64,000 nt of DNA from NCBI RefSeq assembly GCF_000259075.1, contig NZ_AJKI01000030.1:88521-152520 (forward strand), written 5' to 3'. Within the stretch, counting starts at the first letter, position 1; every line of letters begins with the position of its first letter. Below are positions 40,005 through 62,730 of this stretch, in pieces. A model generated the notes under the pieces. The model saw nothing but the letters and a program-made list of their open reading frames with translations. It ran no database searches and was not told the origin of the DNA. Source of the stretch: Marinilabilia salmonicolor JCM 21150 (GTDB lineage: Bacteria > Bacteroidota > Bacteroidia > Bacteroidales > Marinilabiliaceae). A program made the position numbers and the translations under genes.

Positions 40005-40014
40005 TTTTCTACAG

Positions 40015-40060
40015 TCGGGATGAGAAGATTCGAACTTCCGACCCCTCGCCCCCCAGACGC
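40015..40060 (-). repeat. attachment site: 3' fragment of a tRNA-Pro(GGG) gene
   Basis: On the minus strand the sequence reads as positions 28-73 of a tRNA: anticodon GGG with U33, then the variable loop GGGTC-type, T-arm GGAAG-TTCGAAT-CTTCT, acceptor CATCCCG and discriminator A. The 5' part (D-arm and acceptor 5' strand) is absent; upstream of it the sequence becomes AT-rich and leads straight into the integrase gene. This is the expected remnant when an element inserts into the tRNA 3' end; the intact tRNA should be at the other end of the element, outside the window. Confidence 0.75.
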
Positions 40061-40198
40061 AATTACTATATTTTCCCTTGTTTTCCTATATTTTCTTTTT
40101 AATTGTTTATCAGCCCTTTACAAATAAAAAATTTATTTTTTATTTCTTTATTTTTCCTATATTTGCATAAAACATGGCACTATAATGGCACCGAAATT

Positions 40199-41413
40199 AT
40201 GGCAAGCATCAAAATTATTTTAAAAAAAGGGAAGAAATACAAAGATGGTAAACATCCAATTGTTTTAAGAATTCTTCATCAACAAAAACAAAAAATAGCT
40301 ACCCTCGGGTTAAAAGCTAAGCCCGAAGAATGGAATGAAGATTTATCAAGATTCACCTCCAAGGTCAGGGATTTTAAAACAAAAAACCAGCTTATCGACA
40401 ATATTGAAACCAGGAGTGAACAAATACTTAATACCCTTAAAAAAGAAAATAAACTCTTTTCATTTGAACTATTTCTGACAAGACTTTGGGATAAAGAAAA
40501 AGCAATATCACTCTTTGAGTTTTATGATATAATAATTGATGAACTAGAAGCACTCCAAAAAGAAAGCACTAAAAATATTTACCAAGCTTCATACAGCGCC
40601 ATAAAAAAGTTTTGCAAAAACAGAGATGTTTCTTTTTACGAAATCAATTATGAATTCCTTAAACAATTTGAAGCTTTTCTGTTCAAAAATGGAAACACAG
40701 GTGGCGGGGTTCATCATCACATGAGAGATCTACGGTATATATTCAATGAAGCAATTCGAAGGAAACATGTGAGCCTAAGTGCATATCCCTTCTCAACACA
40801 GTTCAATAAAGATGGATACTCGCTATCGCATCTAAAGTCAAAGGCAACCCCAAGAGCTTTATCTGAAAATGACCTTCAAAAATTCAAATCCTTTGATGTG
40901 GAAAAATACCCTCATCTGTCTAAAGCATATTATTATTTTCTTTTCAGTTACTATGCCAGAGGGATGAATTTTGTTGACATAGCCCAATTAAAGAAAAATG
41001 ACATTTATGATAACCGCTTAATTTACAACCGATCGAAAACTAACAAACGCTTAAACATCAAGGAAACCGAAAACATTCAAAGAATTCTTAAACATTTTAA
41101 TGACACACCCGGAGATTATATTTTCCCTATACTTAATGAATTTCATCGGACAGAAACTCAGAAAACACATAGAATTAAAAAGATTCTAAAAAAATACAAT
41201 TCTGATTTAAAAGAGATTGCCAAAATATTACAAATAAACATAAACCTTACTTCTTATGTCGCCCGTCACACCTTTGCAACAACACTTAAAAGAAATGGCA
41301 TCAGTACTGAAATTATCAGTGAATCCCTTGGCCATAGCGAACTTTCTACAACTAAAGCCTACCTCGAAAAATTCTCAAACGAACTACTCGACAAAACAGA
41401 CGATATCCTCTGA
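40199..41413 (+). CDS. tyrosine recombinase (integrase) of the mobile element
   Basis: 404 aa from the ATG at 40199 (MASIKIILKK), the typical start of this Bacteroidetes integrase class; an upstream ATG at 40103 adds unrelated residues. Arm-binding N-terminal domain, SAM-like core-binding domain around residues 90-190, and a catalytic domain with R in YYARGMNFVDIAQL, H-x-x-R in SYVARHTFATTLKR, the conserved H in SLGHSELSTTKAYL and the catalytic Tyr in the same segment. Located 140 nt inside the tRNA-Pro attachment site, it should catalyse integration and excision. Its stop overlaps an ATG (ATGA) of the next gene. Confidence 0.93.
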   Translation: MASIKIILKKGKKYKDGKHPIVLRILHQQKQKIATLGLKAKPEEWNEDLSRFTSKVRDFKTKNQLIDNIETRSEQILNTLKKENKLFSFELFLTRLWDKEKAISLFEFYDIIIDELEALQKESTKNIYQASYSAIKKFCKNRDVSFYEINYEFLKQFEAFLFKNGNTGGGVHHHMRDLRYIFNEAIRRKHVSLSAYPFSTQFNKDGYSLSHLKSKATPRALSENDLQKFKSFDVEKYPHLSKAYYYFLFSYYARGMNFVDIAQLKKNDIYDNRLIYNRSKTNKRLNIKETENIQRILKHFNDTPGDYIFPILNEFHRTETQKTHRIKKILKKYNSDLKEIAKILQININLTSYVARHTFATTLKRNGISTEIISESLGHSELSTTKAYLEKFSNELLDKTDDIL

Positions 41414-43032: not shown

Positions 43033-43383
43033 ATGGCTCGACCAAAAAAAGAAATTGAGGAATTAAGAATCCATCAGGTAAATATTCGCCTGACCGATAT
43101 TGAAAGAGAATATGCAGAAAAACAAGCTGAGCTTTCAGGACTAACTGTCGCTAAATGGTTGCGTCGAGCTGCGTTTTCAAAAAGACCGTTGGTTCTATCT
43201 AAAGTTACTCCAATGCATCGAGCTTACTATAAGCAATTGGTTGGAATTTCTACGAATATCAACCAAATAGCGAAAAACCTCAATCAGGGAAAATATACAA
43301 AGATATTTTCCGGTATAACAGAAGCCAACGTTCTTCTTCGTCAAATCGCTAGACTTCTAACCGATGATAGGAAAACAAATTAA
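43033..43383 (+). CDS. MobC-like relaxosome accessory protein
   Basis: 116 aa. Starts with a ribbon-helix-helix-like segment (HQVNIRLTDIEREYAEKQA) and ends with the MobC motif (VGISTNINQIAKNLNQGKY). MobC proteins bind at oriT and help the relaxase open the DNA. The 3' end overlaps the relaxase start by 20 nt, indicating translational coupling. Confidence 0.88.
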   Translation: MARPKKEIEELRIHQVNIRLTDIEREYAEKQAELSGLTVAKWLRRAAFSKRPLVLSKVTPMHRAYYKQLVGISTNINQIAKNLNQGKYTKIFSGITEANVLLRQIARLLTDDRKTN

Positions 43384-44572
43384 AGGAGCGTCCTTTCGTG
43401 GAGTGCTAAACTATATGGAGGCAAAAGTAAATGACGGGGTTGGCAAATTCATCGATTCTAATATGATGAATGATAATGCCCGGAATCTAGCAAATGAATT
43501 CGGAATTATCAGAAGCTTGAAGCCAAATATAAAAAAGGCCGTCTATCATTGCTCCCTGGCAATTGGCAAAGACGAAAAACTCACTGACGAGCAATTCAAG
43601 AAATTAGGTCAGGATTATTTAAAAGAAATGGGATTCGATAATTCTCAATATGTAATGTACAGGCATTTTGACCGTGACCATCCTCATATTCATTTAATTG
43701 CTAATCGCATTGACATGGATGGGAAAGTCGTAAGTGATGGAAGAGATTACCGACGAAGCGAAGAAACTATTCGTGAGCTGGAAAAGAAGTATAGCCTATC
43801 CCCTGTTCTGGAATCTAAATTCAGCAAAGAGTCCAGTCTTTCGAAGGGCCAAATAGAACTATATAGACGAACCGGAACAATTCCGGCCAAAAAACAAATA
43901 CAGATCGTTCTAAGAAAGTCATTAACCAAGGCAATATCTGTAGCTGAGTTTGAAAAGAACCTTGCAGAATATGGGGTTTTGGTAAAGCACCACAAGAACA
44001 ACCAGGGAAAAGTCTTTGGGGTCAGCTTTGAGTTAAATGGTCAGGCATTCAAAGGATCAGCTCTCGGAAAAGGCTATTCATGGACGAATATCAATAACCA
44101 AATCCACCTTAATCATGAAAGAAATAGAGGAAGCAGCCAGGAAATCCATAGAGGAGAGACGGCGAATCTTGACCGAACAAGTAGAAAACCTTCAGAAAAC
44201 CAACGTCGCCAATATTCAGGAATTGAAAGAGGCCTTGAGACCAATAGCGGCAAACTTTCAAAAACTAATTATGGCCCTGAGGCAGGAGTCAATGAACCTT
44301 CAGGAACAACAGATAAAAGTTACCACCGGTATTCAAATGATGGAACAGCAAAAAACTTTCCTGGACAGGAAAACATCGGATTTGAGAAAAATGAGATTCC
44401 TACTGAATATCAGGGTAATGGCATTGGCCCTGGCAATCGGATTGGTCTCGGGGATAGGAATCTTTTTAATCCTTTTTTATCGTCTAATTCCCTGAAGGAT
44501 GAGGATGAAGAACTACCAAGAAAGAAGAAAAAGAAAAAACGGAAGGGAAAGAATCCCGGAATCGGTATGTAA
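43364..44572 (+). CDS. MobA/VirD2-type relaxase
   Basis: 402 aa. The candidate nicking Tyr is in GVLNYMEAK near residue 18, and the metal-binding three-His motif is HFDRDHPHIHLIANR around residue 107. Catalytic core residues 1-250; the last 150 residues are low-complexity, Gly/Asn/Arg/Ser-rich and end in a Lys-rich tail. Cleaves oriT and pilots the strand through a conjugation channel supplied in trans, since no type IV secretion genes are in the window. A second protein is encoded out of frame inside the low-complexity tail (44115-44495). Confidence 0.92.
   Translation: MIGKQIKGASFRGVLNYMEAKVNDGVGKFIDSNMMNDNARNLANEFGIIRSLKPNIKKAVYHCSLAIGKDEKLTDEQFKKLGQDYLKEMGFDNSQYVMYRHFDRDHPHIHLIANRIDMDGKVVSDGRDYRRSEETIRELEKKYSLSPVLESKFSKESSLSKGQIELYRRTGTIPAKKQIQIVLRKSLTKAISVAEFEKNLAEYGVLVKHHKNNQGKVFGVSFELNGQAFKGSALGKGYSWTNINNQIHLNHERNRGSSQEIHRGETANLDRTSRKPSENQRRQYSGIERGLETNSGKLSKTNYGPEAGVNEPSGTTDKSYHRYSNDGTAKNFPGQENIGFEKNEIPTEYQGNGIGPGNRIGLGDRNLFNPFLSSNSLKDEDEELPRKKKKKKRKGKNPGIGM
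44115..44495 (+). CDS. overlapping gene inside relaxase: coiled-coil membrane protein (MobB-like)
   Basis: 126 aa in a different frame from the relaxase, from ATG 44115. Residues 1-90 are an uninterrupted heptad-like helix (MKEIEEAARKSIEERRRILT ... MEQQKTFLDRKTSDL) and residues 100-122 a membrane helix (VMALALAIGLVSGIGIFLIL). The relaxase frame is low-complexity over the same stretch, so the ordered product appears to be the alternative-frame protein. The layout matches ColE1-type mobB nested in mobA, where MobB is a small membrane mobilisation protein. An open overlapping frame by chance remains possible, but the structured content argues against it. Confidence 0.6.
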   Translation: MKEIEEAARKSIEERRRILTEQVENLQKTNVANIQELKEALRPIAANFQKLIMALRQESMNLQEQQIKVTTGIQMMEQQKTFLDRKTSDLRKMRFLLNIRVMALALAIGLVSGIGIFLILFYRLIP

Positions 44573-44905: not shown

Positions 44906-47551
44906 ATGACTAATTGGATAAATCTTAAGGAAAACTTATCGATATCGAAAGTTATTTCTGAGGAAACTGGTTTGAAAATAAGAAAAAACGGAGCAACAGT
45001 AATTTTATCATCCTGCCCCTTTTGTGGTTCCGGCAACGGGCCTAATAAAAGTTCTGCTTTTAGCATCAAGAACGATCGGATGTACAAATGTTTTGCATGT
45101 GATCAGGCAGGGGATGTAGTTAATTTCATTGCAGGACAACGCCAAGTATCTGATGGTGCTGCGATCAAATATTTATTAAATAAATATGGCGACGGGCTTA
45201 AAAAAGCATCTGAGATTCATTATTCTGAATGGGAAAAACGGTTGTATGCAATTAAGAATAACAGCAAAACTGAAGCTGTTAGCTATTTGGAGCATGAAAG
45301 GAGCATTAATGCCAACATACTCCCTAAGGGATGTTTCTATTATGATTCCATTCGGAAAGCGATTGTCTTTCCCAGTCATAATGAACAGCTTTTGAATCTC
45401 CGGTTCCTTAATCCTGAAAGAGGAAAAAGTAAAGCCATAAACCTGACTAATGGACCGCTGGTTCGTAAGAAAGATTGCCTGTATTCCGCGTGCTTCAATA
45501 AAAACGAAAAAACCGTTTTCATTACAGAAGGTGTAATAAATGCGTTGTCGTTATTTCCTTATTCTTCTATCAGCATTTTTGATTCGGGAAATAAGATTGA
45601 ATTAAATCTGCTGACACCTTTTGTTCAGAACAAGAACGTAGTCCTTGCATTTGATGATGATGACGCAGGTGAGAAAGCCTTTAGACATTACTCAGATCTG
45701 ATTAAGAACGCTAATATTTCTCTGGAAATACGAAAATTGATTCTACCAGAGAGCAATGAAAAGCGAAAAGACATAAACGATCTATTGATTGAAGGCAAGT
45801 TGGAACATTGGCTAAAACAGAATTCTAGCTATCAGCTTTTATACAGTAACAGGATCCTGAACCACATTAAAGAAACTTCAGAAGATATTGAAGAAATGTG
45901 GAATACTGAAGGATATTATAAAAAATGTGGAAAATACTATGGCCGAGACAGGAAAGGGAATAAAAGAGAATTATCCAATTTCTTAATGGACATAATTTAT
46001 CATTTCCCCGATGGCTCAAAAAACTCTCTGCGCTACGTAAAGTTTCAGTCAAATGAATCCGGTCAGTTAGAAACCAATTTCACGCTTCTTGATGCAGAAA
46101 CACTTACCTCAATACAAAAATTCAAAACTGCGATTTTTTCGATTTCAGAACTTCAATTTTTTGGAACTTCGAGAGACTTTGAGATCATAAAAAAAGGGCT
46201 TGGAAAAAAGACTCTAAAAGCTATCAGGATTGAAACTCTCGGATGGTCCCAAAAATATGGAATTTATATTTTCTCAAACGCAGTGGTGGCGGAAGATAAA
46301 ATCCATATCATCGATCAATTTGGAATTGTAACACTAAAACAAGAAAAACTCTTTTTGCCGGCATGGAGTGAAATCTATAAAGAAAAGGACGCTTATGAAG
46401 CTCAAAGAGATTTCATATACAAGGAAACAAGTATTGATTTAGATATGTTCGAAACACTTATTGAAACGGCTTTTCAAGAAAAAGGCATCATCGGCTTCTT
46501 GTTTCTTCTATCTACTGTTTTTAGTGATATTATTTTTCGTGATATTGGTTTTTTTCCTATACTATTTTTATACGGGACATCCGGAAGTGGAAAAAGCTCG
46601 TTTACGAATTTTTTATTAGGGCTTTTCGGCAAGCCACAAACTCCATTATCACTTTCTGGACCTTCAACTGAAAAGGCTGTATTAAGAAAACTAAGCCAAT
46701 ATAGTAATGCATTAATTTTTCTAAATGAATACAAATCTGATAATGCAGGAAAGAATGATGACCTGATTGTTAATATTTATGATAGGGTTAGTTATGAAAC
46801 CGCAATGTTTTCAGATGACAACAGAACAACCCAAAGAAAAATATGCTCTGGAGTCATTATTGACGGAAATTTTTTACCAGTTAAACATCCTAGAACATAC
46901 TCCAGATTAATTCAGCTTGACTTTATGGACAAGTCTTATTCTGAAGAGCAGGAAAAAGCCTATAAAAGACTAGAAGATATCCTTATCGCTGAAACCTTTA
47001 GCGGTCTGTTAACAGAGATATTAAAATTTAGAAAAATTATGGATGCACAATTCCGGCAGGTCTATTACAAAGTAGTTAATGATGTGAAGAAGGAATATGC
47101 TGAAGTTCAATTTGACAATAGAATTTTGGTAAACTATTGTGTTTTGTTATCAAGCTTAAAACTCTTAAAAAATCCTTTGAAACTGAACATGGAATATGAA
47201 AAAACAAAACAAATATTAATGAAAACTGCTAAGGTTCAGCAATCGATTCTTACCCAAACAGGGGAGACAGAACAGTTTTTTGAAGCCATAGAAACCAACC
47301 TTCACACCGGAGAATTGCATTCTAAACATTTGCTTGATCCTGCTTGCTTGCATCTACATTTCGCTACAGCTTATATGGTTTATGCTGAACACATGCAAAA
47401 AACCGGCGGGCTTGCTATCGATAAACAAGCTATGAAGAAACTGCTAATGCGGCATCCATATTTTATTGAAGATGGGGCTGCAAAAAAAATTAACGGCAAA
47501 ACTTATCGAGTGATCTCTTTTGACTTAAAAGTTCTTCCTCTAAACATATAA
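44906..47551 (+). CDS. primase-helicase with CHC2 zinc finger, Toprim and P-loop domains
   Basis: 881 aa. N-terminal CHC2-type zinc finger (CPFCGSGNG, then CFACDQAGDVVNF; residues 37-75), Toprim domain (VFITEGVINALSLF, VLAFDDDDAGEKA; about 205-260) and C-terminal helicase-like domain with Walker A GTSGSGKSSF near residue 560 and LIFLNEYKSD as Walker B. This is the architecture of phage/ICE primase-helicases that start and unwind element DNA. It supports autonomous replication or strand re-synthesis after transfer. The C-terminal 90 residues look like a winged-helix end. No Rep protein with initiator motifs is next to it. Confidence 0.88.
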   Translation: MTNWINLKENLSISKVISEETGLKIRKNGATVILSSCPFCGSGNGPNKSSAFSIKNDRMYKCFACDQAGDVVNFIAGQRQVSDGAAIKYLLNKYGDGLKKASEIHYSEWEKRLYAIKNNSKTEAVSYLEHERSINANILPKGCFYYDSIRKAIVFPSHNEQLLNLRFLNPERGKSKAINLTNGPLVRKKDCLYSACFNKNEKTVFITEGVINALSLFPYSSISIFDSGNKIELNLLTPFVQNKNVVLAFDDDDAGEKAFRHYSDLIKNANISLEIRKLILPESNEKRKDINDLLIEGKLEHWLKQNSSYQLLYSNRILNHIKETSEDIEEMWNTEGYYKKCGKYYGRDRKGNKRELSNFLMDIIYHFPDGSKNSLRYVKFQSNESGQLETNFTLLDAETLTSIQKFKTAIFSISELQFFGTSRDFEIIKKGLGKKTLKAIRIETLGWSQKYGIYIFSNAVVAEDKIHIIDQFGIVTLKQEKLFLPAWSEIYKEKDAYEAQRDFIYKETSIDLDMFETLIETAFQEKGIIGFLFLLSTVFSDIIFRDIGFFPILFLYGTSGSGKSSFTNFLLGLFGKPQTPLSLSGPSTEKAVLRKLSQYSNALIFLNEYKSDNAGKNDDLIVNIYDRVSYETAMFSDDNRTTQRKICSGVIIDGNFLPVKHPRTYSRLIQLDFMDKSYSEEQEKAYKRLEDILIAETFSGLLTEILKFRKIMDAQFRQVYYKVVNDVKKEYAEVQFDNRILVNYCVLLSSLKLLKNPLKLNMEYEKTKQILMKTAKVQQSILTQTGETEQFFEAIETNLHTGELHSKHLLDPACLHLHFATAYMVYAEHMQKTGGLAIDKQAMKKLLMRHPYFIEDGAAKKINGKTYRVISFDLKVLPLNI

Positions 47552-47937: not shown

Positions 47938-48681
47938 ATGGGAAAAATAATAGCTTTCATTAATCAGAAAGGTGGTGTTGGAAAAACCACCACCACTGCA
48001 TCTGTCGTTGCAGGAATGGCCCATTTAGGGTTGAGAACATTGGCCATAGACCTGGATGCTCAATGTAATTTAACAACTTCATTTGGCGTTACTGATTTCA
48101 GGGCAAATACCTACAATACACTAAAGGGTGAATTAGGTCTGGAACCTACAAAAATAGATGAACATCTTGCCATTCTCCCTTCATCGGTTGACTTGAGCGC
48201 TTTCGAACTGGAAATGTCTGCAGAGCCGGGGAAAGAATATCTGCTAAAGGAATTGCTTGAACCCGTTTTGGATCAATATGACTACATCCTGCTGGATTGT
48301 TCCCCTAACCTGGGACTTGTGTCGATTAATGCTCTAACGGCAGCAGACCTCTACATCATTCCGCTACTTCCCCACCACCTAAGTATTCAGGGATTAACCA
48401 AACTATTAGAAATAACTGATAAAGTAAAAAAGAGACTTAACCCAGGCCTAAAAATGGGCGGAATTGTTTTAACCCAGTACAATAACCGCAAAGTACTTCA
48501 CCGGGACATTGCACAGGTAGTGCAAGAACACTTTGGACAAAAGCTCTTTAAAACGGTTATTCGGGAAAACATCTCCCTGGCGGAAGCTCCCAGTTCCGGA
48601 ATAGACATTTTTCAGTACGCACCAAAGAGTAATGGTGCTGAAGACTACCTCAGTTTGACCAAGGAAATCATTAATCTTTAA
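47938..48681 (+). CDS. parA: ParA-family partition ATPase
   Basis: 247 aa. The deviant Walker A motif KGGVGKTTT lies near residues 11-19, with switch I in DLDAQCNLTTSF and Walker B DYILLDCSPNLG near 120. The length without an N-terminal HTH matches the small type Ib group, which is paired with a small DNA-binding protein that also acts as repressor. Its partner is the next gene, 8 nt away. In mobile elements such pairs stabilise the excised circle or position it. Confidence 0.92.
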   Translation: MGKIIAFINQKGGVGKTTTTASVVAGMAHLGLRTLAIDLDAQCNLTTSFGVTDFRANTYNTLKGELGLEPTKIDEHLAILPSSVDLSAFELEMSAEPGKEYLLKELLEPVLDQYDYILLDCSPNLGLVSINALTAADLYIIPLLPHHLSIQGLTKLLEITDKVKKRLNPGLKMGGIVLTQYNNRKVLHRDIAQVVQEHFGQKLFKTVIRENISLAEAPSSGIDIFQYAPKSNGAEDYLSLTKEIINL

Positions 48682-48689
48682 ATACCATT

Positions 48690-48980
48690 ATGATGGCAAA
48701 AAAAGACTTCAAACAAGGACTGGATTTCTTAATTCAGAACACAAAAGAAAACATTGAAAACCCAAAGGTTACTGATAAAGAAAAAACAGAGGAACCCGGT
48801 GCCCAAAAAGCGACTTATTATTTAAACTCAAAGAACCTGAATACCATAAAAGCGATTGCCTGGCATGACCGAAAGCCTATTGGTCAGGTAATTAATGAAG
48901 CTTTATCTCTCTACATTAAAAACTATCCTGACCCGGAAAAAGCAGAAAAAAGTTTCCGAAAAGAATCTGGAAAAAGTTAA
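48690..48980 (+). CDS. ParG/omega-like small DNA-binding partner of ParA
   Basis: 96 aa. A flexible, charged N-terminus (residues 1-45) is followed by a ribbon-helix-helix-like fold: KATYYLNSKNLNTIKAIAWH (strand and helix 1) and GQVINEALSLYIKNY (helix 2). This is the architecture of ParG-type centromere-binding proteins, whose N-terminal tail stimulates ParA ATPase. Located directly after parA; the CCATA repeat array begins 20 nt beyond its stop. Function as the centromere-binding protein is inferred from position and fold. Confidence 0.7.
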   Translation: MMAKKDFKQGLDFLIQNTKENIENPKVTDKEKTEEPGAQKATYYLNSKNLNTIKAIAWHDRKPIGQVINEALSLYIKNYPDPEKAEKSFRKESGKS

Positions 48981-48999
48981 TCCTCTTTTTATTTCAAAT

Positions 49000-49090
49000 A
49001 CCATACTTCCCATAAGTACCATATCTGCCATAATTGCCATATATACCATAACGGCCATAAAAACCATAAGTGCCATACATACCATAATTA
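49000..49090. repeat. ten tandem 9-bp repeats of CCATA plus a 4-bp spacer
   Basis: CCATA recurs exactly every 9 bp from 49001 to 49086, ten perfect copies, each followed by four variable bases; an eleventh, CAATA at 49091, is degenerate. The core is conserved while the spacers vary, as expected of a protein-binding array rather than slippage. It starts 20 nt after the ParG-like gene. ParG of TP228 binds short boxes spaced by 4 bp, so this is a candidate centromere. Confidence 0.75.
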
Positions 49091-49104
49091 CAATACCTAA
49101 CTGA

Positions 49105-49628
49105 CCTTTTTTTTAACTACTTTACATTAATAAGGCTCTACTTCTTACTGTAAACCTGTAAACCAACATTCTTTATAACTATTTTTCAAATCATTAAAGG
49201 TTTACAATTAGTTTACAGTGGTTTACAGGCATTTTACAAACCACTGACTTCTTGCAACTTAATGATTTACATTGATTTTTCTTTATCAGTAGTTTTTTTG
49301 CTGTTCCTTTAGAAAAGCTGAAAACCTTATGCCTGAATTATGAATCTCCCCCTCCCTTAAAACGGCCACATTGTAATCAAAAAAAGCAAGTCATTAATAT
49401 TTATTTCCATTCATTAGTAAAAAATTTAATTATTAAGGTCTAATGGAACTAGCATGCAGGAATTTATACATATTCCCTTGTGGCAATCGTTGCCATGCTC
49501 GTTTCATCATAAAGCATTTTTCGGTACATTTACAAATAGTTTAAACCAAATTGCAATTAAACAACCAATTTGGCATTCCGGCTAATCATTTTATTAAACC
49601 TTTATTTACCCAAAACACGTCAGGAAAA
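49105..49628. repeat. TTTACA/TGTAAA repeat region, possible origin
   Basis: TTTACA (or TGTAAA) occurs at 49121, 49149, 49157, 49201, 49212, 49222, 49233 and 49266. CTGTAAAC is duplicated in tandem at 49148-49163, and GTTTACA repeats at 10-11 bp steps (49200, 49211, 49221). A 9-bp inverted repeat CAGTGGTTT / AAACCACTG (49216-49224 / 49238-49246) overlaps them. Iteron-like spacing near one helical turn suits an origin or a repressor region. No gene is seen between 49105 and 49628. Confidence 0.5.
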
Positions 49629-51626: not shown

Positions 51627-53189
51627 ATGGCGAAAAAGAAAGCGAATAGCAACCAGAAAGGATTTGAAGAGACATTATGGGATTCGGCCAACCGATTAAG
51701 AGGAACCGTAGAGTCAAGCGAGTACAAACATGTGGTGCTAAGCTTGATTTTCCTGAAATTTGTAAGTGACAAATTTCAGGAGCGGCGACAGCAACTCCTT
51801 GATGAAGGCAAGGAGAAGTATCTTGAGATGAAAGAGTTCTACAACATGAAGAACATCTTTTTCTTGCCGGAAACATCGCGTTGGAGCTTTATTATGGATC
51901 ACTCCAAACAGGAAGACATTGCCCTTAAAATTGACACTGCTCTTAGCACCATTGAAAAGACCAATCCATCACTTAAAGGAGCCCTTCCCGATAATTACTT
52001 TTCGCGTCTCGGATTAGATGGCAGTAAGCTTTCGTCATTGCTTGATACCATCAACAATATAGATACCGTTGCCGACAAAGAAAACGATGTTGTGGGGCGT
52101 GTTTATGAATATTTCCTCGGAAAGTTTGCAGCTGCAGAAGGCAAAGGCGGTGGCGAGTTTTACACACCGAAGTGCATTGTAAACTTGTTGGCAGAGATGC
52201 TGGAACCCTACAAAGGCAAAATCTATGACCCCTGCTGTGGCTCAGGTGGTATGTTCGTTCAATCCATTAAGTTTGTGCAAAGCCACCACGGCAGTCAAAA
52301 AGACATTTCCATATACGGACAGGAGTACACCGGAACCACTTACAAACTGGCCAAGATGAACCTGGCCATACGTGGTATATCGGCCAATCTTGGAGAAGTG
52401 CCTGCAGATACCTTTTTTAAAGATCAGCACCCCGATTTGAAAGCTGATTTCATCCTGGCTAATCCCCCATTTAACCAAAAGGAGTGGCGAGGTTCTGATG
52501 AGTTGACCGATGATCCCCGCTGGGCCGGCTACAATGTGCCACCCACCGGAAACGCCAACTATGGCTGGATTTTGCACATGCTTTCCAAGCTATCGGATAC
52601 CGGAACCGCCGGTTTTGTGCTGGCCAACGGTTCCATGAGTTCCAACACAAGCGGTGAAGGTGAAATACGCCGTAAGCTGGTAGAAAACGATTTGGTGGAA
52701 TGCATGATCGCACTCCCCGGACAGCTGTTCTACACCACACAAATTCCTGTTTGCCTTTGGTTTCTAACAAAGCACAAAAAGAGCAACGGATATAACGACC
52801 GTCAGGGAAAGACGCTTTTTATCGATGCCCGCAACATGGGTACTATGATTGACCGGGTTCACAAAGAATTAACCTCTGAAGATATTGCCACCATAACCCG
52901 CACATTCCATGCGTGGCGCGAAGGGAAAGATGCCCTGGATGGCAAACCATTGGAATATGAAGACCAACCCGGCTTTTGTAAATCGGCTTCCCTTGAAGAG
53001 ATTGCCAAAAATGACTTTGTGCTCACTCCCGGCCGTTACGTGGGAGCCGCTGAAGTGGAAGACGATGGTATTCTCTTTGAAGAAAAGATGGCAGAATTGA
53101 CTACCACCCTTTATCAACAAATGAAGGAGTCGGCCAACCTGGATGCTGAAATTCGTAAAAACATGGAGGTGCTGGGTTATGGGGAGTGA
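51627..53189 (+). CDS. hsdM: type I restriction-modification methyltransferase subunit
   Basis: 520 aa. N-terminal HsdM_N helical domain (FEETLWDSANRLRGTVESSE), the AdoMet motif I region GEFYTPKCIVNLL ... DPCCGSGGMF near residue 195, and the catalytic NPPF motif in DFILANPPFNQ near 277, marking an N6-adenine methyltransferase. It works with HsdS to methylate the recognition site. Its stop lies 11 nt inside hsdS. It heads the RM cargo, with an inverted repeat 40 nt upstream. Confidence 0.96.
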   Translation: MAKKKANSNQKGFEETLWDSANRLRGTVESSEYKHVVLSLIFLKFVSDKFQERRQQLLDEGKEKYLEMKEFYNMKNIFFLPETSRWSFIMDHSKQEDIALKIDTALSTIEKTNPSLKGALPDNYFSRLGLDGSKLSSLLDTINNIDTVADKENDVVGRVYEYFLGKFAAAEGKGGGEFYTPKCIVNLLAEMLEPYKGKIYDPCCGSGGMFVQSIKFVQSHHGSQKDISIYGQEYTGTTYKLAKMNLAIRGISANLGEVPADTFFKDQHPDLKADFILANPPFNQKEWRGSDELTDDPRWAGYNVPPTGNANYGWILHMLSKLSDTGTAGFVLANGSMSSNTSGEGEIRRKLVENDLVECMIALPGQLFYTTQIPVCLWFLTKHKKSNGYNDRQGKTLFIDARNMGTMIDRVHKELTSEDIATITRTFHAWREGKDALDGKPLEYEDQPGFCKSASLEEIAKNDFVLTPGRYVGAAEVEDDGILFEEKMAELTTTLYQQMKESANLDAEIRKNMEVLGYGE

Positions 53190-54585
53190 ATGGAAAGAGA
53201 TATCCTTACAGACTTTTATTAATTTCAATCCAAAAGAATCGATACCTAAAGGAATGCTTAAGAAGAAAGTGTCGATGGATGCATTAATCCCATTTAATAA
53301 GAAAATACCTTCATATTCTAATGAAAGATATTATGGCGGGGCGAAGTTTAGAAATGGTGATGTCATTATGGCCAGAATTACTCCAAGTTTGGAAAATGGG
53401 AAAACCGCTTTAGTTAATATTTTCGAAAAGGATGAAACTGGATTTGGATCAACTGAATTTATTGTCCTGAGAGCAAAGGAAGGTGTTTCGAACAAAGATT
53501 TTATTTTTTATTTGTCTACTTATAGATTGTTTCGAAATATAGCAATTCACTCTATGACTGGCAGTTCCGGGAGACAGCGAGTACAACTTGATGTTTTGAA
53601 GAGGTCAATATTTAAACTCCCTCCACTCCCAGAGCAAAAAGTCATCGCCCACATCCTTGGAACTCTCGACGAAAAGATAGAGCTCAACCGGCGCATGAAT
53701 GCAACACTTGAGCAGATGGCGCAGGCTATGTTCAAAAGCTGGTTTGTAGATTTCGACCCGGTCATAGACAAAGCCCTTGCTGCAGGCAACTCCATCCCGG
53801 AGCCATTGCAAAACCGCGCAGAAAAACGGAAAGCACTTGGGGATAAGCGCAAACCGCTGCCCGAAGATATTCAAAAGCTTTTTCCGGATGCGTTTGAGTT
53901 TAGTGAGGAGCTGGATAAGTGGGTGCCGAAGGGGTGGGAAGTTAAGCCTGTTGACAAAATGATTCAAATTAACCCTAGAGTAACTCTAAGAAAAGAAACT
54001 ATTGCACCCTTTGTTGATATGAAGGCACTTCCCACATCAGGTTATTCTGTTTCTAATGTGATATCAAAGGAATATAAAGGAGGTGCTAAATTTGAAAAGG
54101 ATGATGTATTGTTAGCGAGAATTACACCATGTCTAGAAAATGGGAAGGCTGGTGTTGTTGACTTTCTAAACGAGGGAGAGGTTGGATTTGGTTCAACAGA
54201 ATTTATTATATTGAGAGGGAAAGAAGCAGTAAAAACTCCCTTTATTGCTTGCCTGATAAGAGATTCTAAATTTCGGAAACATGCAACTCAAAGCATGGTT
54301 GGTTCCTCAGGAAGACAGAGAGTTCAGAATGCCTGTTTTTCAAGCTACTATTTAGCAACTCCAGATGATGTCCTTTTAAATAATTTCGATCGACTGATTT
54401 CATCTAACTTTAAAACAATCACTCAAAATAAAGAGGAAATAAATACTATAACTAATTTAAGGGATACCCTCTTACCAAAGTTAATATCCGGTGAAATCCG
54501 TATTCCTGAAGCACATTATATTTTGAGGACAGAAGCGAATCTGAACATGGCAGCTGAAGAAGCAATTACTTTCACACGCAAATAA
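53179..54585 (+). CDS. hsdS: type I restriction specificity subunit
   Basis: 468 aa from the ATG at 53179, which overlaps the end of hsdM; an earlier ATG at 53143 would run in hsdM. Two target-recognition domains (about residues 1-150 and 250-400) alternate with conserved helices (LPEQKVIAHILGTLDEKIEL). Both TRDs share the same block: GGAKF, ARITPSLENGK or ARITPCLENGK, GFGSTEFI and GSSGRQRVQ. This suggests two related half-sites and perhaps a pseudo-symmetrical target. Phase-variation inverted repeats are not visible in the window. Confidence 0.93.
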   Translation: MGSEWKEISLQTFINFNPKESIPKGMLKKKVSMDALIPFNKKIPSYSNERYYGGAKFRNGDVIMARITPSLENGKTALVNIFEKDETGFGSTEFIVLRAKEGVSNKDFIFYLSTYRLFRNIAIHSMTGSSGRQRVQLDVLKRSIFKLPPLPEQKVIAHILGTLDEKIELNRRMNATLEQMAQAMFKSWFVDFDPVIDKALAAGNSIPEPLQNRAEKRKALGDKRKPLPEDIQKLFPDAFEFSEELDKWVPKGWEVKPVDKMIQINPRVTLRKETIAPFVDMKALPTSGYSVSNVISKEYKGGAKFEKDDVLLARITPCLENGKAGVVDFLNEGEVGFGSTEFIILRGKEAVKTPFIACLIRDSKFRKHATQSMVGSSGRQRVQNACFSSYYLATPDDVLLNNFDRLISSNFKTITQNKEEINTITNLRDTLLPKLISGEIRIPEAHYILRTEANLNMAAEEAITFTRK

Positions 54586-54615
54586 TCGAATAAATATAAA
54601 CTCTCCCTTAATCGA

Positions 54616-56758
54616 ATGAATAACAGCACAATACTTAGAACCTCAGCTATCTTATTTGCAGAAGACTCTGAAAACATTAATCCAGTTATCATTAAGCGAA
54701 AAATGATTGAGGGAATCTTTTTGGAGCTTGATAATAGAAAACTGAAAATTTTTGAGATTGTAGATTTTCTCAAATCGATGTTGGATTTGGCGTTTACTGA
54801 AGAGGAAATTGTTGGGATTATAAATGAATCTTCAGAAGGATTTTTTGACATTATACCAAGTACCGAGCACTCAAAATCAATTGTCCAATTAACCAGTGAT
54901 AGATTTAAAAAGTTACAAAAGAAGGTTGAGGAATTATCATTCGATGATATTATTGAGCTATTTGGTCAAGATATTTATGAGGGAAGCATTGAAAAGGGAG
55001 ATATAAGAGACGTAGTCTATAGGTATATTTATTACCTAATAAATACTAATCACAGAACCTTATCAAAAATCATCTCAGGTAAAAAGATTGATGGTGAAAT
55101 TAGTCTAATAGAAGCAAAATTCAAATCAAGCGAAAGCGACCTGATAAATCAATTCATTAATTGGGATAATAAGGCTAAGGATAAATCACTTTACATGTTG
55201 ATTTCATATAGCATTGAATATTGTTTAATTGTTAATAATGCAGATAGTGAGAGCTTTGCAGAATCAATAAAGGATAAGGTTTTTTTCTTAGATACGAATA
55301 TTCTTTTTCGGGCCTTAGGAATAAATGGCGAAACCCGCGAAAAAAGAATAATTTCTTTTTTGGAGAAATGTAGGGATAATGGTCAAGAATTTGCTATTTC
55401 GAAATACACATTAACCGAATTCAATGATACAATAAACTATCACCTCAAGCGCATTAACGAGCTGCCATATGCCAAAATAAATCCTGAAATATTTGAATAT
55501 TTTAATTTGAACAGCTCTATTGCTAAATCCTTTTATACATGGAAAGCTGGAAGAAGTATGGAGGCCCTGATTATTTCAAAATGCACGTTGATGGCTTATT
55601 GAAAAAATTTAGAAAGCAATTCAATATTACTATTCAATCCGAGAATATCCATGGAATAAATACTGAAGATTATAATTCCTCGATTACCGAAATGATTTCC
55701 GATATTGAAACCTTTAAACAAAATGGTCAATTTGAATCCCATGAAATAGATGCAAAAAACGTATTCTTCATTTCTTCATTACGAGCTGGAGTAGATTATT
55801 CTCTATCTGAAACGAAATACTATTTTATCTCCACTGATCAAAAATTAAGAAGCTGGGATTATTCAAAAAGCGATAATCAGCCTATTGTATTACTACCCTC
55901 TCATTGGATGTCTTTATTATTAAGATATGTTTCGAGAACTGACAGTGATTATAAAGCGTTTACAAGCTTTCTTAATTTAAAGATAGTTAATGATAATAAG
56001 GGACTTGAGCATTTAGACCAAATTTTGACTGGAATATCCAACGTCACAGAAGACTTTGAGGCTCAATCAATTATTGCTGAAAGTATATTCGAGCAAAAAT
56101 TTGATAAAATATTAAATGGATTACCGGATGAAAAACAAATTGAAGAGGTTGAGGCATTTGCTGAAAAGGAGATTGATCTTCATTTAAAAAGACAGAAAGA
56201 GGTTAATAAACAATTAGAGACTGACTATAAAAGAAAAATATCAGAAATTGAGTTAGAAGTTGAAAATAAAGCAACTAGGGAAGCAATAAATAATAAACTT
56301 GAAAGTTTTACTCAAATAAAAAATGAGAAACTATTAAGACTTCGAGAAAAGAAGCATTAAAACAAACAGAATATATCAGAAAGTTTAAACTTTCTGAAAA
56401 AGCCAGTTCACTTTCTAAAATAATTCAAAGTTGCTTTATAGCCGGATTACTGATATATATCTGTTTTCTTATATACTTGATCAACACCTATGCTTTTTTT
56501 CAAAAATACTGGGGATTAATTAGTATTGTGTTTCTTGTTGCTAATTATTTTACAATATTTCTTTTGGGAAAAACTTTGGATCCAGTCAACTACTTTAAAG
56601 ATTTAAATAAGATTATTTTAAACCGAAAATTTAAAAAAGCAGATTTCAACCCTTTAATTTATGGAAAGTTAAAAAAAGATATTGCGGATTTAAACACTCA
56701 AATTGAGCAAATTGATCAAGAGATCGATGATTTAGAAATGCAAAAGACAGGCAGTTGA
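54616..56758 (+). pseudogene. PIN-domain/coiled-coil/membrane gene, interrupted by two frameshifts
   Basis: Three consecutive open segments join into one protein of about 710 aa. Segment 1 (54616-55550) has a helical N-terminus and the PIN start DKVFFLDTNILFRAL with TLTEFND. Segment 2 continues YGGPDYFKMHVDGLL, holds the second PIN half (YYFISTDQKLRSW) and a long coiled coil. Segment 3 has two membrane helices (CFIAGLLIYICFLIYLI; LISIVFLVANYFTIFLLG) and ends at 56758. The breaks at 55551-55556 and 56347-56350 are each repaired by one extra A. Located between hsdS and abiEi. A membrane-anchored PIN nuclease is the inferred product. Confidence 0.7.
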
Positions 56759-56844
56759 AAATGTACTCTATCTTTATGACTGAACCCAACCGGATAGAAA
56801 GGCCAGTTATTGATATTTTACATTTAAATTACTCCCCCCACATC

Positions 56845-56893
56845 AAAATGTCCAGTTTATTAATTAAAAAACTGGACATTTTTTATATATTTG
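56845..56893 (+). promoter_or_regulatory. operator/promoter of the AbiE-hsdR unit
   Basis: A perfect 14-bp inverted repeat, AAAATGTCCAGTTT (56845-56858) / AAACTGGACATTTT (56869-56882), sits immediately before the -7 element TATATTTG (56886-56893) and 16 nt before the antitoxin start. AbiEi antitoxins are known to repress their own operon by binding inverted repeats. The same hairpin followed by T-rich sequence could also terminate the upstream transcript. Confidence 0.65.
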
Positions 56894-56908
56894 TGTAGCT
56901 GTAAACTC

Positions 56909-57634
56909 ATGAAAGTTACTGAAAACATATCATCTACAATAAAAAGACTCCCCAGGGGTTATGTGTTCACCTATGCTGATTTTACCCCGGAGGTGAGTAA
57001 GAAGGAAGCGGTTATAAAAGCGCTTAACCGTATGGTGCAGACAGGAAAGCTAAAAAAACTTTCTAAAGGCAAGTATTACAAGCCCGAGGAATCAGCCTTT
57101 GGCACATTACCTCCGGATCAATTCCAGATAGTAAAAGATCTGTTGGAGAAAAACGGAAAAATAACAGGTTATCTAACGGGATATAGCATCTATAACCAAC
57201 TGGGGCTGACGACGCAGATAAGCAATGTTATTCAGATTGGAAGAAACGAAACACGCCCTGCTTTTTCAAGAGGCATGTATAAAATCAGCTTTATCAAACA
57301 AAAGAATACCATTACCAAAGAAAATATCCCCCAGTTACAGCTTTTGGATGCTATTAGATTTATTAAAACCATTCCGGACACCACTATTGACAATTCCTGC
57401 ATTATATTAAAAGGGCACTTTAAGAAGCTCCCTTTCGATAAGCAACAAAATTTAATTCGTTTGGCCTTACTATATCCACCATCCACCAGGGCTTTATTAG
57501 GTGCCATATTGGAAGAGATAAATAGCAAAATTGAATTAAAAACCCTGAAGAATTCATTAAACCCAATTACAAAGTATAAGTTAAATATTTCGCCCAAGAC
57601 CTTATCAACCCTTAAAAACTGGAATATTTTATGA
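56909..57634 (+). CDS. AbiEi-type antitoxin (DUF6088-like), transcriptional repressor
   Basis: 241 aa from the ATG at 56909. N-terminal winged helix (LPRGYVFTYADFT, ALNRMVQTGKLKKLSKGKYY) recognisable as the AbiEi DNA-binding domain; the C-terminal part carries the antitoxin domain. Belongs to the type IV AbiE toxin-antitoxin group of Bacteroidota. The stop overlaps the toxin start by 4 nt. Expected to neutralise the toxin's effect and to repress the promoter with the 14-bp inverted repeat. Confidence 0.85.
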   Translation: MKVTENISSTIKRLPRGYVFTYADFTPEVSKKEAVIKALNRMVQTGKLKKLSKGKYYKPEESAFGTLPPDQFQIVKDLLEKNGKITGYLTGYSIYNQLGLTTQISNVIQIGRNETRPAFSRGMYKISFIKQKNTITKENIPQLQLLDAIRFIKTIPDTTIDNSCIILKGHFKKLPFDKQQNLIRLALLYPPSTRALLGAILEEINSKIELKTLKNSLNPITKYKLNISPKTLSTLKNWNIL

Positions 57635-58575
57635 CCTTACACAACGATCCCAAAGCTTTTGACCAGGTCATTCGTTTAGCTTCAGAAAAGTTAAATATCA
57701 ATCCTGTCTTTATTGAAAAAGACTATTGGATAACCTTATTATTGAAACGCTTATCCGAAAGCAAGTATGCTCACCAGGTGGTTTTTAAAGGCGGAACCTC
57801 TTTGTCAAAGGGCCATCATTTAATTAGTCGTTTTTCTGAAGATGTAGATTTAGCGGTTATTAGTGAGGACGGCCAATCTGCCAACAAAATCAAAACATTA
57901 ATCAGGACGGTTGAAAAAGAGTTAACTCAAGGTCTCAAAGAACAATACATAGATGGCCAAACAAGTAAAGGTTCCCGTTTTAGAAAGTCTCTTTTTAAAT
58001 ACAACACAAACCTGAAAGGGAATACTTCAAACCGGGTAATAATTGAAATAAATTCATTCGCAAATCCTTTCCCTTATGCCCAGCATGCCATTCATGCATT
58101 TATTGCTGATTATTTCAGAGAATCCGGAAATGAACGATTTATCGGGGAGTACGGAATGGACTCCTTTGAAGTAAATGTTTTAGATAAAAAACAAACCGTC
58201 ATTGAAAAACTGGTATCGCTTATCCGTTTTTCGTTTAGTGACATCCCCATAGATGGCATTAGATCAAAAATCAGGCACTTTTACGATCTCCATCATCTTT
58301 TACAGGATGAAGAATGTAACGGATTCATAATGTCTGAAGCTTTTCAAGATGAATTTAACAAGCTGTTGGAGCATGACAAACTACAATTTGATGATCCTAC
58401 CGGATGGAAAGAAAAAGCATTAACGGATTCAATATTAATGAGTGATTTTGATGGCGTATGGAAGCAAGTTAAGCAACAGTATAATTCAGAGTTAGGCAAA
58501 TTAGCATTTAGAGCCATCCCGGAAGAGCAAGAGGTGTACGATTCATTTAAAACCATACTGAAAAAGTTATCATGA
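57631..58575 (+). CDS. AbiEii-type nucleotidyltransferase toxin
   Basis: 314 aa. Nucleotidyltransferase motif GGTSLSKGHHLISRFSED followed by VDL, i.e. G-S/T-x10-D-x-D, near residue 50, and a lysine-containing KGG. AbiEii toxins act by nucleotidylating targets, and characterised relatives modify tRNA 3' ends. The start overlaps abiEi (ATGA) and the stop overlaps hsdR (ATGA), so the three are read as one unit. All catalytic residues appear intact. Confidence 0.88.
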   Translation: MTLHNDPKAFDQVIRLASEKLNINPVFIEKDYWITLLLKRLSESKYAHQVVFKGGTSLSKGHHLISRFSEDVDLAVISEDGQSANKIKTLIRTVEKELTQGLKEQYIDGQTSKGSRFRKSLFKYNTNLKGNTSNRVIIEINSFANPFPYAQHAIHAFIADYFRESGNERFIGEYGMDSFEVNVLDKKQTVIEKLVSLIRFSFSDIPIDGIRSKIRHFYDLHHLLQDEECNGFIMSEAFQDEFNKLLEHDKLQFDDPTGWKEKALTDSILMSDFDGVWKQVKQQYNSELGKLAFRAIPEEQEVYDSFKTILKKLS

Positions 58576-61500
58576 AGTTTACCGAAGCCAAATTGGAACA
58601 AGTCTTTATAGATCTACTTCAGGAAGAAGGTTTTCAATATATTTCAGGAGATCAAATCGATCGTTCTGAAGAAGATGTTCTTATCAAAGAGGATATTCGC
58701 GCCTTTCTTAAAAAACAGTACTCAAAAGATGGCATTACTGATTCAGAAATTGATGGCATCATTCGTGAACTGGAAAAACTGCCGGCTTCAGATCTTTATG
58801 AAACCAATAAAACGGTTATGCGGAAAGTGTCTGACGGGTTCCTCCTAAAACGGGAAGATCACAAACTGAAAGATCTTTACATTCGCCTTATTGACTTTGA
58901 AGGGTTAACAAAAGAAGATGCTGTCAGCCAGACTTCAGAGTTATCAGTAGCTGCCGATGGAAAAGAGAAATACCAGATTCATGCCGATCAGAATATCTAC
59001 AAATTCGTCAATCAATTTGAAATACAAGGTTATGAAAAGAGAATTCCGGATGGGATTCTTTTTATTAACGGTTTGCCTTTTGTGGTATTTGAACTGAAAA
59101 GCGCCATCAGGGAAAACACCAATATTCATGATGCTTATATTCAACTAACCACCAGGTACAAAAGAGATATTCCGGAGTTATTCAAATACAATGCTTTTTG
59201 CATTATCAGTGACGGTGTAAACACCAAAGCGGGATCCTTCTTTGCTCCTTACGACTATTTTTATGCCTGGCGGTCGGCTCCCGACAGGCAAATGCTCAAC
59301 AAAGATGGCTTTGACGGCATGAAATCGCTCATCAGCGGAATGCTGAATAAGAATGATTTGCGTAACATCATTCGCCATTTTATTTATGTCCCGGATGTTT
59401 CTAAAAAGGAAGAAAAAATATTGTGCCGGTATCCGCAATATTACGGAGCTTTAAAACTGTTTTCCAATATCAAACAGCACCAGCGCCCGGATGGTGACGG
59501 AAAAGGAGGAACCTATTTCGGAGCAACGGGGTGTGGAAAAAGTTATACCATGCTTTTCCTTACCCGTCTGCTGATGAAAAGCAAATTCTTTACCTCTCCC
59601 ACCATTGTTTTAATAACTGATCGTACTGATTTGGATGATCAGCTAAGCGGACAATTTACCAATGCAAAAGCCTTTATAGGTGACAATGTGGTGGAAAGTG
59701 TTGAGAGCCGCGCGGATCTGAGACAAAAACTGCAAGGGCGAAATAGCGGAGGTGTGTTCCTTACTACTATCCACAAGTTTACCGAAGATACAGAGCTTTT
59801 AACCGACCGGAATAACGTAATCTGTATTTCCGATGAAGCGCATCGCAGTCAGACCAATCTGGATCAGAAGGTACGTATTACAGAAAACGGTGTAAGCAAG
59901 AGATATGGTTTCGCCAAATATCTGCACGACTCCCTCCCCAATGCTACCTATGTCGGCTTTACCGGAACTCCGGTGGATGCCACACTTGATGTTTTCGGAG
60001 AAGTGGTGGATGCCTATACCATGACCGAATCGGTAAATGATGAAATTACTGTTCGCATTGTGTACGAAGGCCGGGCTGCTAAAGTGATACTCGACAACCG
60101 GAAACTGCAGGAAATTGAGAATTATTATTCCCGTTGTGCTGAGGAAGGTGCCAATGAACATCAAATTGAGGAGAGTAAAAAGGCTACCACCAATATGAAT
60201 GCTATTCTGGGTGATCCGGATCGACTGAAAGCAGTAGCTGAGGATTTTGTGACTCACTATGAAAAGAGAGTTGAAGAAGGTGCTACGGTGAAAGGGAAGG
60301 CCATGTTTGTTTGCAGCAGTCGCCCAATTGCCTGGAAACTGTATCAGAATATCATTGATCTCAGGCCGGAATGGAGTGAAGTGAAGGCATGTGAAGAGGG
60401 AAGTGATCTTAGTGAGCAGGAACAAAAAGAAATCATGTCCATGCCCCGCGTTAAAATGATCATGACCCGGGGTAAAGACGATCCGGCCGAACTATACGAG
60501 ATGCTAGGAACAAAAGAACATAGGAAAGAGCTCGACCGTCAGTTTAAAAACCCCAAGTCCAATTTTAAGATCGCCATTGTTGTGGATATGTGGCTCACCG
60601 GATTTGATGTTCCGTTTCTGGACACTATGTACATTGACAAGCCCATTCAGCGGCATAATCTTATTCAGACCATTTCACGCGTTAACCGGAAATACGAAGG
60701 AAAAGAAAAAGGACTGGTAGTAGATTACATTGGTATAAAACGCCAAATGAACCTGGCACTTGCACACTACAATAAAAAAGACAGTCAGAACTTTGAAGAT
60801 ATTCAGCAATCGGTTACTGTCGCCAGAGACCACCTGGATTTACTGGATAAGATATTCCATAAGTTCGATGCTTCAAAATATTTCGGCGGTACTCCTTTGG
60901 AACAACTCAATACGCTTAACATGGCTGCTGAATTTGTTCAAATGACCCAGGAACTGGAAAAGCGTTTTATGTATCTCGTAAAACGCCTGAAAGCAGCTTA
61001 TGATATTTGTTCCGGAAGTGAAGCATTTTTTCAGCCGGAAAGGGATAAAATACACTTTTACCTCGCCGTGCGTTCGGTTGTTTTCAAATTAACCAAAGGC
61101 GAAGCTCCGGATATATCACAAATGAATGCCAAAGTCCGTCAAATGATTCAGGATGCCATCGAAAGCCAGGGTGTGGAAGAGATATTTAAACTGGGCGATG
61201 ATCATGAAAAGGAAGTAGATATTTTTGATGAAGATTACCTGAACAAAATAGACAAAATAAAGCTCCCGCATACTAAAATAAAGCTTCTCCAAAAATTGTT
61301 GGCCAAAGCCATCGATGAGTACAAGAAAATCAATAAAATTAAGGGAATCGACTTTTCAAAAAAGATGCAAACTCTTATTGAGCGTTACAATGAGAGACGG
61401 GAAGCCGACACGTTAAGGGGTGAAGTTCTGGAGGATTTCACCGATGAAATAATCGACCTATATCATGCACTCAAGAAGGAAAAAGAATCCTTTGGTGACC

Positions 61501-61793: not shown

Positions 61794-61875
61794 AGGCTTC
61801 CGAATGCAAAAAATAGATGAGAATTTTATTCCCTATGAAGAAACGATGTGGAGATGAAATTTCTTAAATTGTAGT

Positions 61876-62559: not shown

Positions 62560-62587
62560 TTTTCAAGTATTTTTGATAATGCAGTAA

Positions 62588-62690
62588 GATAATCTTCGAT
62601 GGCCTATACAAGGTGCAGGATATTTTTGCTTTGGCGAAACATCTATATCAGCTTGAAAAGCATGTGAAGAAAAATGTTTAATATCTGTGA
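62588..62690 (+). other. possible coding remnant
   Basis: A short plus-strand frame between stops reads IIFDGLYKVQDIFALAKHLY then QLEKHVKKNV and a stop. It looks protein-like, but no family is recognised and it has no start. It could be the C-terminal end of a gene lost in an earlier rearrangement of the island. Confidence 0.25.
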
Positions 62691-62730
62691 GTACCATTGC
62701 TGGCGTATAATCTTTGATGTGCAGTAGTTA

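Follow-up and report, generated by a model that had tools for sequence, protein, structure and literature searches.

A gene pair encoding a ParA-family ATPase and a small protein, likely of the ribbon–helix–helix (RHH) type, is followed in the DNA analysed here (the window, by which we mean the whole stretch of 64 kb) by an array of ten perfect CCATA boxes with an exact period of 9 bp, which array we regard as probably the centromere—a parS-like site—of a ParA/RHH partition system. Dimers of the 96-aa protein would bind one to each 9-bp cell and, jointly, would recruit and stimulate the ParA. To judge from the sequence, the system is likely type Ib-like, with a new 9-bp cell and a site that lies downstream of the operon.

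The host element, the gene pair, and the array

The pair and the array are carried by an element integrated at a tRNA-Pro gene, which may be an integrative and mobilizable element and whose visible part contains an integrase, a 47-bp tRNA-Pro repeat, and a relaxase, in the order recombinase, relaxase, primase-like gene, par pair with array, and cargo:

40013..40059, no strand: 47-bp duplicate of the 3' portion of tRNA-Pro(GGG), adjoining the integrase gene; likely the left attachment-site repeat
40103..41413, plus: tyrosine recombinase (Arm-DNA-bind_5, SAM-like, Phage_integrase)
43364..44572, plus: MobA/VirD2-type relaxase (Pfam Relaxase 1.1e-36; NCBIfam Bacteroid_MobB below cut-off)
44906..47551, plus: primase-like protein (DnaG zinc ribbon, Toprim, DUF927)
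47938..48681, plus: ParA-family Walker ATPase, 247 aa (Pfam AAA_31 7.6e-51; PDB 8ray 6.4e-51)
48690..48980, plus: RHH-type partner, 96 aa (95 from the second ATG), likely the array binder (weak profile matches, model, conservation)
49001..49086, plus: CCATA array, ten perfect boxes, 9-bp period, likely a parS-like centromere (letters; lattice kept in relatives)
49089..49097, plus: degenerate eleventh cell TACAATACC, in register with the array (CAATA at 49091)
49149..49271, no strand: second conserved repeat cluster, TGTAAAC/GTTTACA, recurring in relatives
51627..63624, no strand: cargo region with restriction, AbiEii, and Mrr genes
51627..53189: hsdM of a type I restriction-modification system
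53143..54585: specificity subunit of the type I system
56891..58575: DUF6088 and AbiEii pair
58572..61793: hsdR of the type I system
62731..63624, minus: Mrr-type nuclease

The intact tRNA-Pro(GGG) gene is on another contig, and the contig analysed stops at the window's end, the right end of the element being located beyond the sequence in view. A second relaxase-primase-parA-RHH-array copy (L033/L068), with a shorter array of the same boxes, was observed on contig C2 of the same genome (G000), and competition between the two elements for partition proteins, or shared use of these, is conceivable.

In the ATPase the AAA_31 domain spans residues 3–173, and the alignments with the best ParA chains of the PDB begin at residue 1 or 5 and end at 245; the protein is thus a short ParA-family ATPase without an N-terminal DNA-binding domain, as in type Ib systems. 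The partner gene follows after 8 nt. The preliminary description had spoken of a ParA/ParG-like pair, in which characterization the ParA-family ATPase held and the RHH type is likely, with weak profile matches; the window protein itself matches no Pfam family, ParG (PF09274) included, and among 18 relatives PF09274 matched two. The seven PDB chains ranked highest by a profile built from 18 RHH relatives were E73, 56B, omega (2bnw and 1irq, two distinct sequences), ParG 1p94 (E 0.083), the CopG-family 9kkd, and ORF56—we take E73, 56B, and ORF56 to be RHH proteins—with E values of 0.011–0.11, singly weak, in overlapping stretches within profile positions 27–86; a profile of another 28 sequences retrieved E73 alone at 0.027, followed by unrelated chains. 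The AlphaFold2 monomer model (mean pLDDT 78.9) has helices at residues 47–60 and 64–77 plus a further C-terminal helix, no beta strand, and a low-confidence linker at 23–31 (pLDDT below 50); the best Foldseek matches of that model were StnY, CdbA, ORF56, Arc, and CopG, none of them at 0.001 or better. The partner is therefore likely, though not proven, to be an RHH-type protein; and a small downstream RHH gene with a flexible N-terminal tail, weak as the profile evidence is, agrees with type Ib. That this protein is the one that binds the array we infer from the neighbourhood, the fold, and the parallel in the sister systems considered below.

The N-terminus of the RHH protein (48693–48740) has a conserved start, MAKKxFxxGxDxLIQ. 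Chromosomal ParB carries an N-terminal GLGRGLDxLL motif, to which the former bears a resemblance, and by that analogy the conserved start could be a ParA-contact motif.

The CCATA boxes start at 49001, 49010, and so on to 49082, with the period of 9 bp maintained without exception and all ten boxes in the direct orientation. As had been described at the outset, the first box begins 20 nt after the RHH gene, whose stop ends at 48980. The pattern CCATA-N4-CCATA-N4-CCATA occurs eight times in the window, every time within the array, which is also its sole site in the 4.98-Mb genome; and since none of 100 dinucleotide shuffles of the window contained three CCATA in register, we reject a chance origin. 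The initial view of a 5+4 pattern with variable 4-bp spacers had to be revised: the base preceding CCATA is a purine in nine of the ten boxes and the next base outward a T in eight, so that the unit comes nearer to 8 constrained bases of 9. No further cluster of at least three lattice boxes was found in the 64-kb window, cargo included, and the 450 bp before parA contain no CCATA or TATGG box, so that a centromere-based autoregulation was not seen there. We likewise rejected an RNA structure or a terminator at the window array, where no terminator was found and the RNA folded no better than did shuffled sequences (z +1.15).

Downstream of the array, at 49149–49271, TGTAAAC occurs twice, 8 bp apart, and is followed by GTTTACA every 10–11 bp. 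This cluster was also observed in L033, L021, L022, and L023, and in part in L027, and may be a candidate origin, a set of integrase arm sites, or another operator. By eye, GTTACA-like repeats in steps of about 10–11 bp were noted before parA as well (47590–47830).

The 9-bp lattice in related loci

Within the bacterial family, 12 of 71 genomes contain relatives of the RHH protein, and in wider samples the figures are 4 of 393 genomes order-wide, 12 of 295 class-wide, and 29 of 395 phylum-wide, the window's own genome being counted in each instance; the matches outside the family were mostly weak. A protein search with the RHH profile reported 3951 relatives, with 120 of these listed. Single-protein queries found no relative in IMG/VR and none in annotated phages. 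For the comparison we assembled 16 loci, namely 15 of the bacterial family (the window, L020, included) and L010; the lattice counts omit the window and its near-copy L032 and thus refer to 14 loci. The contig of L010 (JAAZCS010000047.1) is labelled Treponema, and its ParA groups inside the Bacteroidota clade on the tree, which placement likely reflects a binning error or a transfer.

Of the 16 loci, 15 have a parA gene next to that of the RHH protein. The exception is L034 (L131; contig C396 of G047), where the RHH gene and lattice boxes occur with no parA in 9 kb, and where mobilisation-like genes were seen by eye in the neighbourhood; the cells of that stretch thus have no adjacently encoded ParA to serve. 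G047, however, carries a complete par pair on another contig (L075), whose ParA the L034 element might use in trans. In L028 a stop falls within the RHH frame.

Within 150 bp behind the RHH gene the 14 loci contain 57 CCATA or TATGG boxes, and 37 of 43 neighbouring boxes lie on one 9-bp lattice, in both orientations and with a fixed offset, in which count a TATGG box is taken as displaced by one base. In the 11 loci whose RHH protein is less than 60% identical the figure is 32 of 38, and the lattice persists in relatives down to 28–35% identity. The best other periods in these 11 loci were 6, which coincides with every other multiple of 9 (22 of 38), and 12 (12 of 38); a period of 7 placed 6 of 38 on the lattice. 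In the same divergent loci CCATA/TATGG is both the most frequent 5-mer pair and the one with the most lattice neighbours. Moreover, among 52 pairs of boxes on opposite strands and no more than 100 bp apart, 40 share one fixed offset; and the gap cells match at least 3 of 5 bases in 31 of 33 instances, whereas displacement by −2, −1, +1, and +2 gives 10, 3, 1, and 9 of 33, respectively. Over 53 boxes the relatives' unit tends to W-R-CCATA-Y. In the 13 loci that could be compared on both sides (L034 being dropped, as its stretch has no parA), the sequence that follows the RHH stop is 11 times richer in boxes (54 in 1950 bp, or 2.77 per 100 bp) than that preceding parA (9 in 3660 bp, or 0.25 per 100 bp).

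In 15 of the 16 loci three or more neighbouring cells each match at 4 or more of 5 bases; upon exclusion of the window and its near-copy the count is 13 of 14, and 8 of 14 have runs of at least four such cells. The array thus accompanies the RHH gene through its relatives. Concerning the opposite case, that of elements keeping the gene pair and lacking the array, one locus was found, L027; the other loci with the pair keep the lattice. Two loci, L028 and L034, contain extra clusters 94–205 bp behind the RHH stop, with the nearest gene start at 646 bp in L028 and none seen in L034, which clusters we counted as part of the primary region and not among the ten secondary clusters described below.

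The binomial probability for the divergent loci, 4e-25, overstates the case, as do such p-values here in general, because the loci are related and share ancestry. Descent alone, though, does not explain the pattern, for occupancy and orientation vary by locus while the register stays. We rejected the bare direct triple as a specific mark: among the 71 family genomes 12 have it versus 13 with a reversed control pattern, so that outside the window array and the G002 copy it performs no better than the control, and the weight is placed solely on the position of the triple and on the two-strand lattice.

The lattice also bears on whether the array could be part of a protein gene. On the minus strand an open frame (48993–49113) reads Tyr-Gly-X ten times and then meets a stop, which reading might represent, for example, the remnant of a Tyr-Gly-rich C-terminal tail; the period of 9 is a multiple of 3, and a triple-pattern match in G012 resembles a codon repeat by its letters. 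Nevertheless, the frame has no start codon from its upstream stop down to the repeats, one ATG being inside the first repeat and leaving at most 28 codons; in L026, L029, and L031 stops break the best such frame while the lattice stays; and in relatives the boxes flip strand on the same lattice. On those grounds we rejected the Tyr-Gly-X protein, consider a coding origin barely credible, and judge from the letters that the frame would be a by-product of the 9-bp period. The absence of a protein-coding role, already put forward from the window alone, accordingly finds confirmation in relatives that keep the lattice and break the frame.

Clusters before other genes

The same boxes were found elsewhere. 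In a scan of longer stretches (192,540 bases) for clusters of at least three cells we obtained 16, versus none in 20 shuffles of the same DNA; nine of these are arrays behind RHH genes and seven lie elsewhere. A family-wide search for mixed triples added three, in G448 (L116), G002 (L120), and G053 (L122), to give ten secondary clusters:

L009, 6337-6368
L010, 7456-7487 and 8712-8743
L068, 12930-12970
L074, 6648-6724
L075, 7985-8034
L076, 5183-5223
L116, 1483-1532
L120, 1501-1541
L122, 1064-1086 (G053), inside an ORF

Each of the ten combines both orientations, which for the last three follows from the design of the search, and nine are intergenic; the one in G053, being inside an ORF, may be due to chance. 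The nine intergenic clusters lie 1, 18, 43, 49, 53, 58, 66, 135, and 313 bp from the nearest ORF start, so that eight of the ten fall within 160 bp of one, against 10.2% of random places (binomial p 1e-7, computed for 8 of 9, with the 160-bp limit chosen once the distances were known). Three precede restriction or candidate-defence genes: an hsdM in L075, in L068 the gene of a SMEK-domain protein of 1413 aa that matches the PADLOC model Aga_REase-PNTD1-PNTD2, and in L009 a gene with a weak match (2.6e-8) to the candidate defence family PDC-M48B. The gene behind the L074 cluster encodes a WG-repeat/TonB_C protein, to which a gene in L116 is similar by eye, and behind the L010 and L120 clusters there are small ORFs whose sequences also appear similar by eye. 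In the 13–14 kb stretches around L116 and L120 no par genes were found. Among the 71 genomes the mixed triple occurs in eight, versus two for the reversed control, and its distribution—6 of 12 RHH-bearing genomes and 2 of 59 others (Fisher 1.5e-4)—includes some primary arrays, so that the observations are not independent.

By analogy, the RHH protein is probably also a repressor or an activator of the genes behind these clusters, and the term centromere alone may be too narrow in that the same boxes cluster before other genes. This consideration raises the question of whether the RHH protein might be a regulator only, with the cells controlling neighbouring promoters and the ParA having some other role in partition or none. 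The location of the secondary clusters near ORF starts is in accord with such an operator function, as are the primary array of L070, situated 73 bp ahead of hsdM, and the presence in L034 of the RHH gene and boxes without parA. Other primary arrays, however, are more distant from the next gene start, at 321–545 bp in L009, L012, and L068, 165 bp in L073, and 195 bp in L076, and the window array is 465 bp from the next listed ORF; the position behind the RHH gene is independent of the cargo that follows; and parA, as stated above, accompanies all but one of the RHH genes. We therefore consider an exclusively regulatory function unlikely and retain the centromere as the preferred reading. A combination of the two, in which one segregation protein would use the 9-bp code twice—the direct array as a centromere, and the mixed clusters before swapped-in defence genes—is a possibility that we advance tentatively.

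Sister systems, known systems, and the proposed mechanism

Related ParA/RHH systems were found to have other boxes. Two Flavobacteriia plasmids (L016 and L017) and the genome locus L078 carry AGTAA boxes with a 9-bp period before parA: seven boxes in L016 (2932–3022; 0 of 200 shuffles), where the grid extends into the start of parA, an array at 2909–2954 in L017 (p 0.04), and one in L078 (p 0.025). In the Bacteroidales loci L019 and L079, TAGTA boxes with an 8-bp period lie upstream of parA (0 of 200 shuffles); the RHH protein of L019, from a Bacteroides relative, is annotated as ParG. TAGTARRR is a string from enterococcal plasmids, and an open-access literature search for it gave no paper. 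In a de novo scan of ten loci no significant array emerged in L010 (downstream p 0.175), L011 (0.23), L015, or L018. Of 23 more distant ParA/RHH loci (46 regions), two had a periodic box at p of 0.01 or less, namely L088 (GTTAT, 7 bp, p 0.003) and L113 (ATACA, 9 bp, before parA, p 0.01), while inspection of the distant loci L036 and L037 revealed no periodic box. In L113 the ATACA boxes were seen again by eye within the RHH gene. Related systems thus vary in the sequence of the box, in its register (8 or 9 bp), and in where the boxes lie.

When mapped onto a ParA tree with 23 rows, the box labels require four changes, the minimum for five labels, although L015 and L018 were set as AGTAA and the element of L027 (L072) as CCATA without a significant array in any of them; two changes are needed for the CCATA rows taken alone, and two long-branch rows are unsurely placed. 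This agreement, with labels that were assigned partly by clade, argues against another binder (an integrase, an excisionase, or a host factor), as does the association of the mixed triple with RHH-bearing genomes, non-independent as those observations are. Such a binder would find a counterpart in the integrase and in the second repeat cluster of the element. A transcription terminator or replication iterons belong to the same group of alternatives. In L024, L028, and L031 the boxes also form, by eye, inverted repeats with following T runs, which structures could be terminators there; the window array, however, gave no sign of one. Taken as a group, we find these explanations improbable, and we proceed with the centromere reading.

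Centromere sites are allowed upstream or downstream of the operon, and type Ib sites are placed upstream (PMC5016525); consequently, the first impression that a downstream array is unusual stands with respect to the latter and fails as a general rule. Our system shares with type Ib a short-repeat array next to the operon and departs from that type in the downstream position of the array. The closest likeness is to delta/omega and the parS of pSM19035, where a small RHH binder beside a ParA recognizes contiguous short non-palindromic cells in direct or inverted order, with several arrays, also over promoters (PMC9499535). There the cells are of 7 bp (WATCACW), compared with the 9-bp W-R-CCATA-Y found here, and the arrays overlap the copS, delta, and omega promoters, whereas here the main array lies behind the RHH gene and the other clusters precede different genes in relatives; furthermore, the mixed order within one register is found in the relatives only, the window array being all direct. 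ParF/ParG with parH of TP228 resembles our pair in having a ParA-type ATPase with an RHH protein and short boxes with AT-rich spacers (PMC7308502), and differs in its tetramer boxes and in an operator upstream of parFG, as opposed to a 9-bp register in a downstream array with no such array upstream. In R388, the main array of direct repeats for StbA, which serves stability, is at stbDRs, and the motif recurs two or three times within other promoters of the plasmid (PMC3098194); the 9-bp motif is, for its part, spaced by 2 bp (period 11) around the promoter of its own operon, and the ParA-like StbB is dispensable for stability. StbA of R388 and omega are thus precedents for a centromere binder with extra promoter sites (PMC3098194, PMC9499535).

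In the proposed mechanism, each dimer of the RHH protein would occupy one 9-bp cell and might polymerise along adjacent cells, as does omega. Boxes in either orientation at a fixed offset point to a binder with a two-fold axis and a repeat of 9 bp, and a dyad-symmetric protein polymerising on DNA would select precisely such a grid. A site downstream of the pair has a precedent in parC2 of the par2 locus of pB171, the repeats of which locus differ from the CCATA cells. The order in par2 is parC1-parA-parB-parC2 (PMC4270457), with centromere repeats on both sides, and that locus accordingly also possesses an upstream array, whereas the window has none before parA.

One dimer of omega binds each 7-bp cell, in direct or inverted order, weakly to a cell alone and tightly to paired cells, and at least four contiguous repeats, to which it binds in either orientation, are needed to stimulate the ParA (PMC9499535). 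The ten uninterrupted cells of the window satisfy an omega-like need for four; in five relatives (L010, L023, L025, L028, and L030) the runs comprise three cells at 4 of 5 bases, under that threshold, and would satisfy it only if weaker cells count. The array-bound partner would then recruit and stimulate the ParA, and the resulting complex might segregate the excised or replicating element; the cells before other genes would act as operators, through which the RHH protein might control some of the cargo promoters.

Among the open-access papers listed we found no description of an RHH centromere in Bacteroidota. For ParA/RHH systems of this phylum, the sequence rule—9-bp cells on either strand at a fixed offset—serves to predict a centromere and perhaps a regulon as well, while the variation in box sequence, register, and position constitutes a natural experiment on the reading of DNA by RHH dimers. 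Should these cells prove to be present in cargo promoters, the defence genes of a mobile element would be tuned by a partition protein, and, were that true, the inheritance of the element and the expression of its defence cargo would be wired to one switch.
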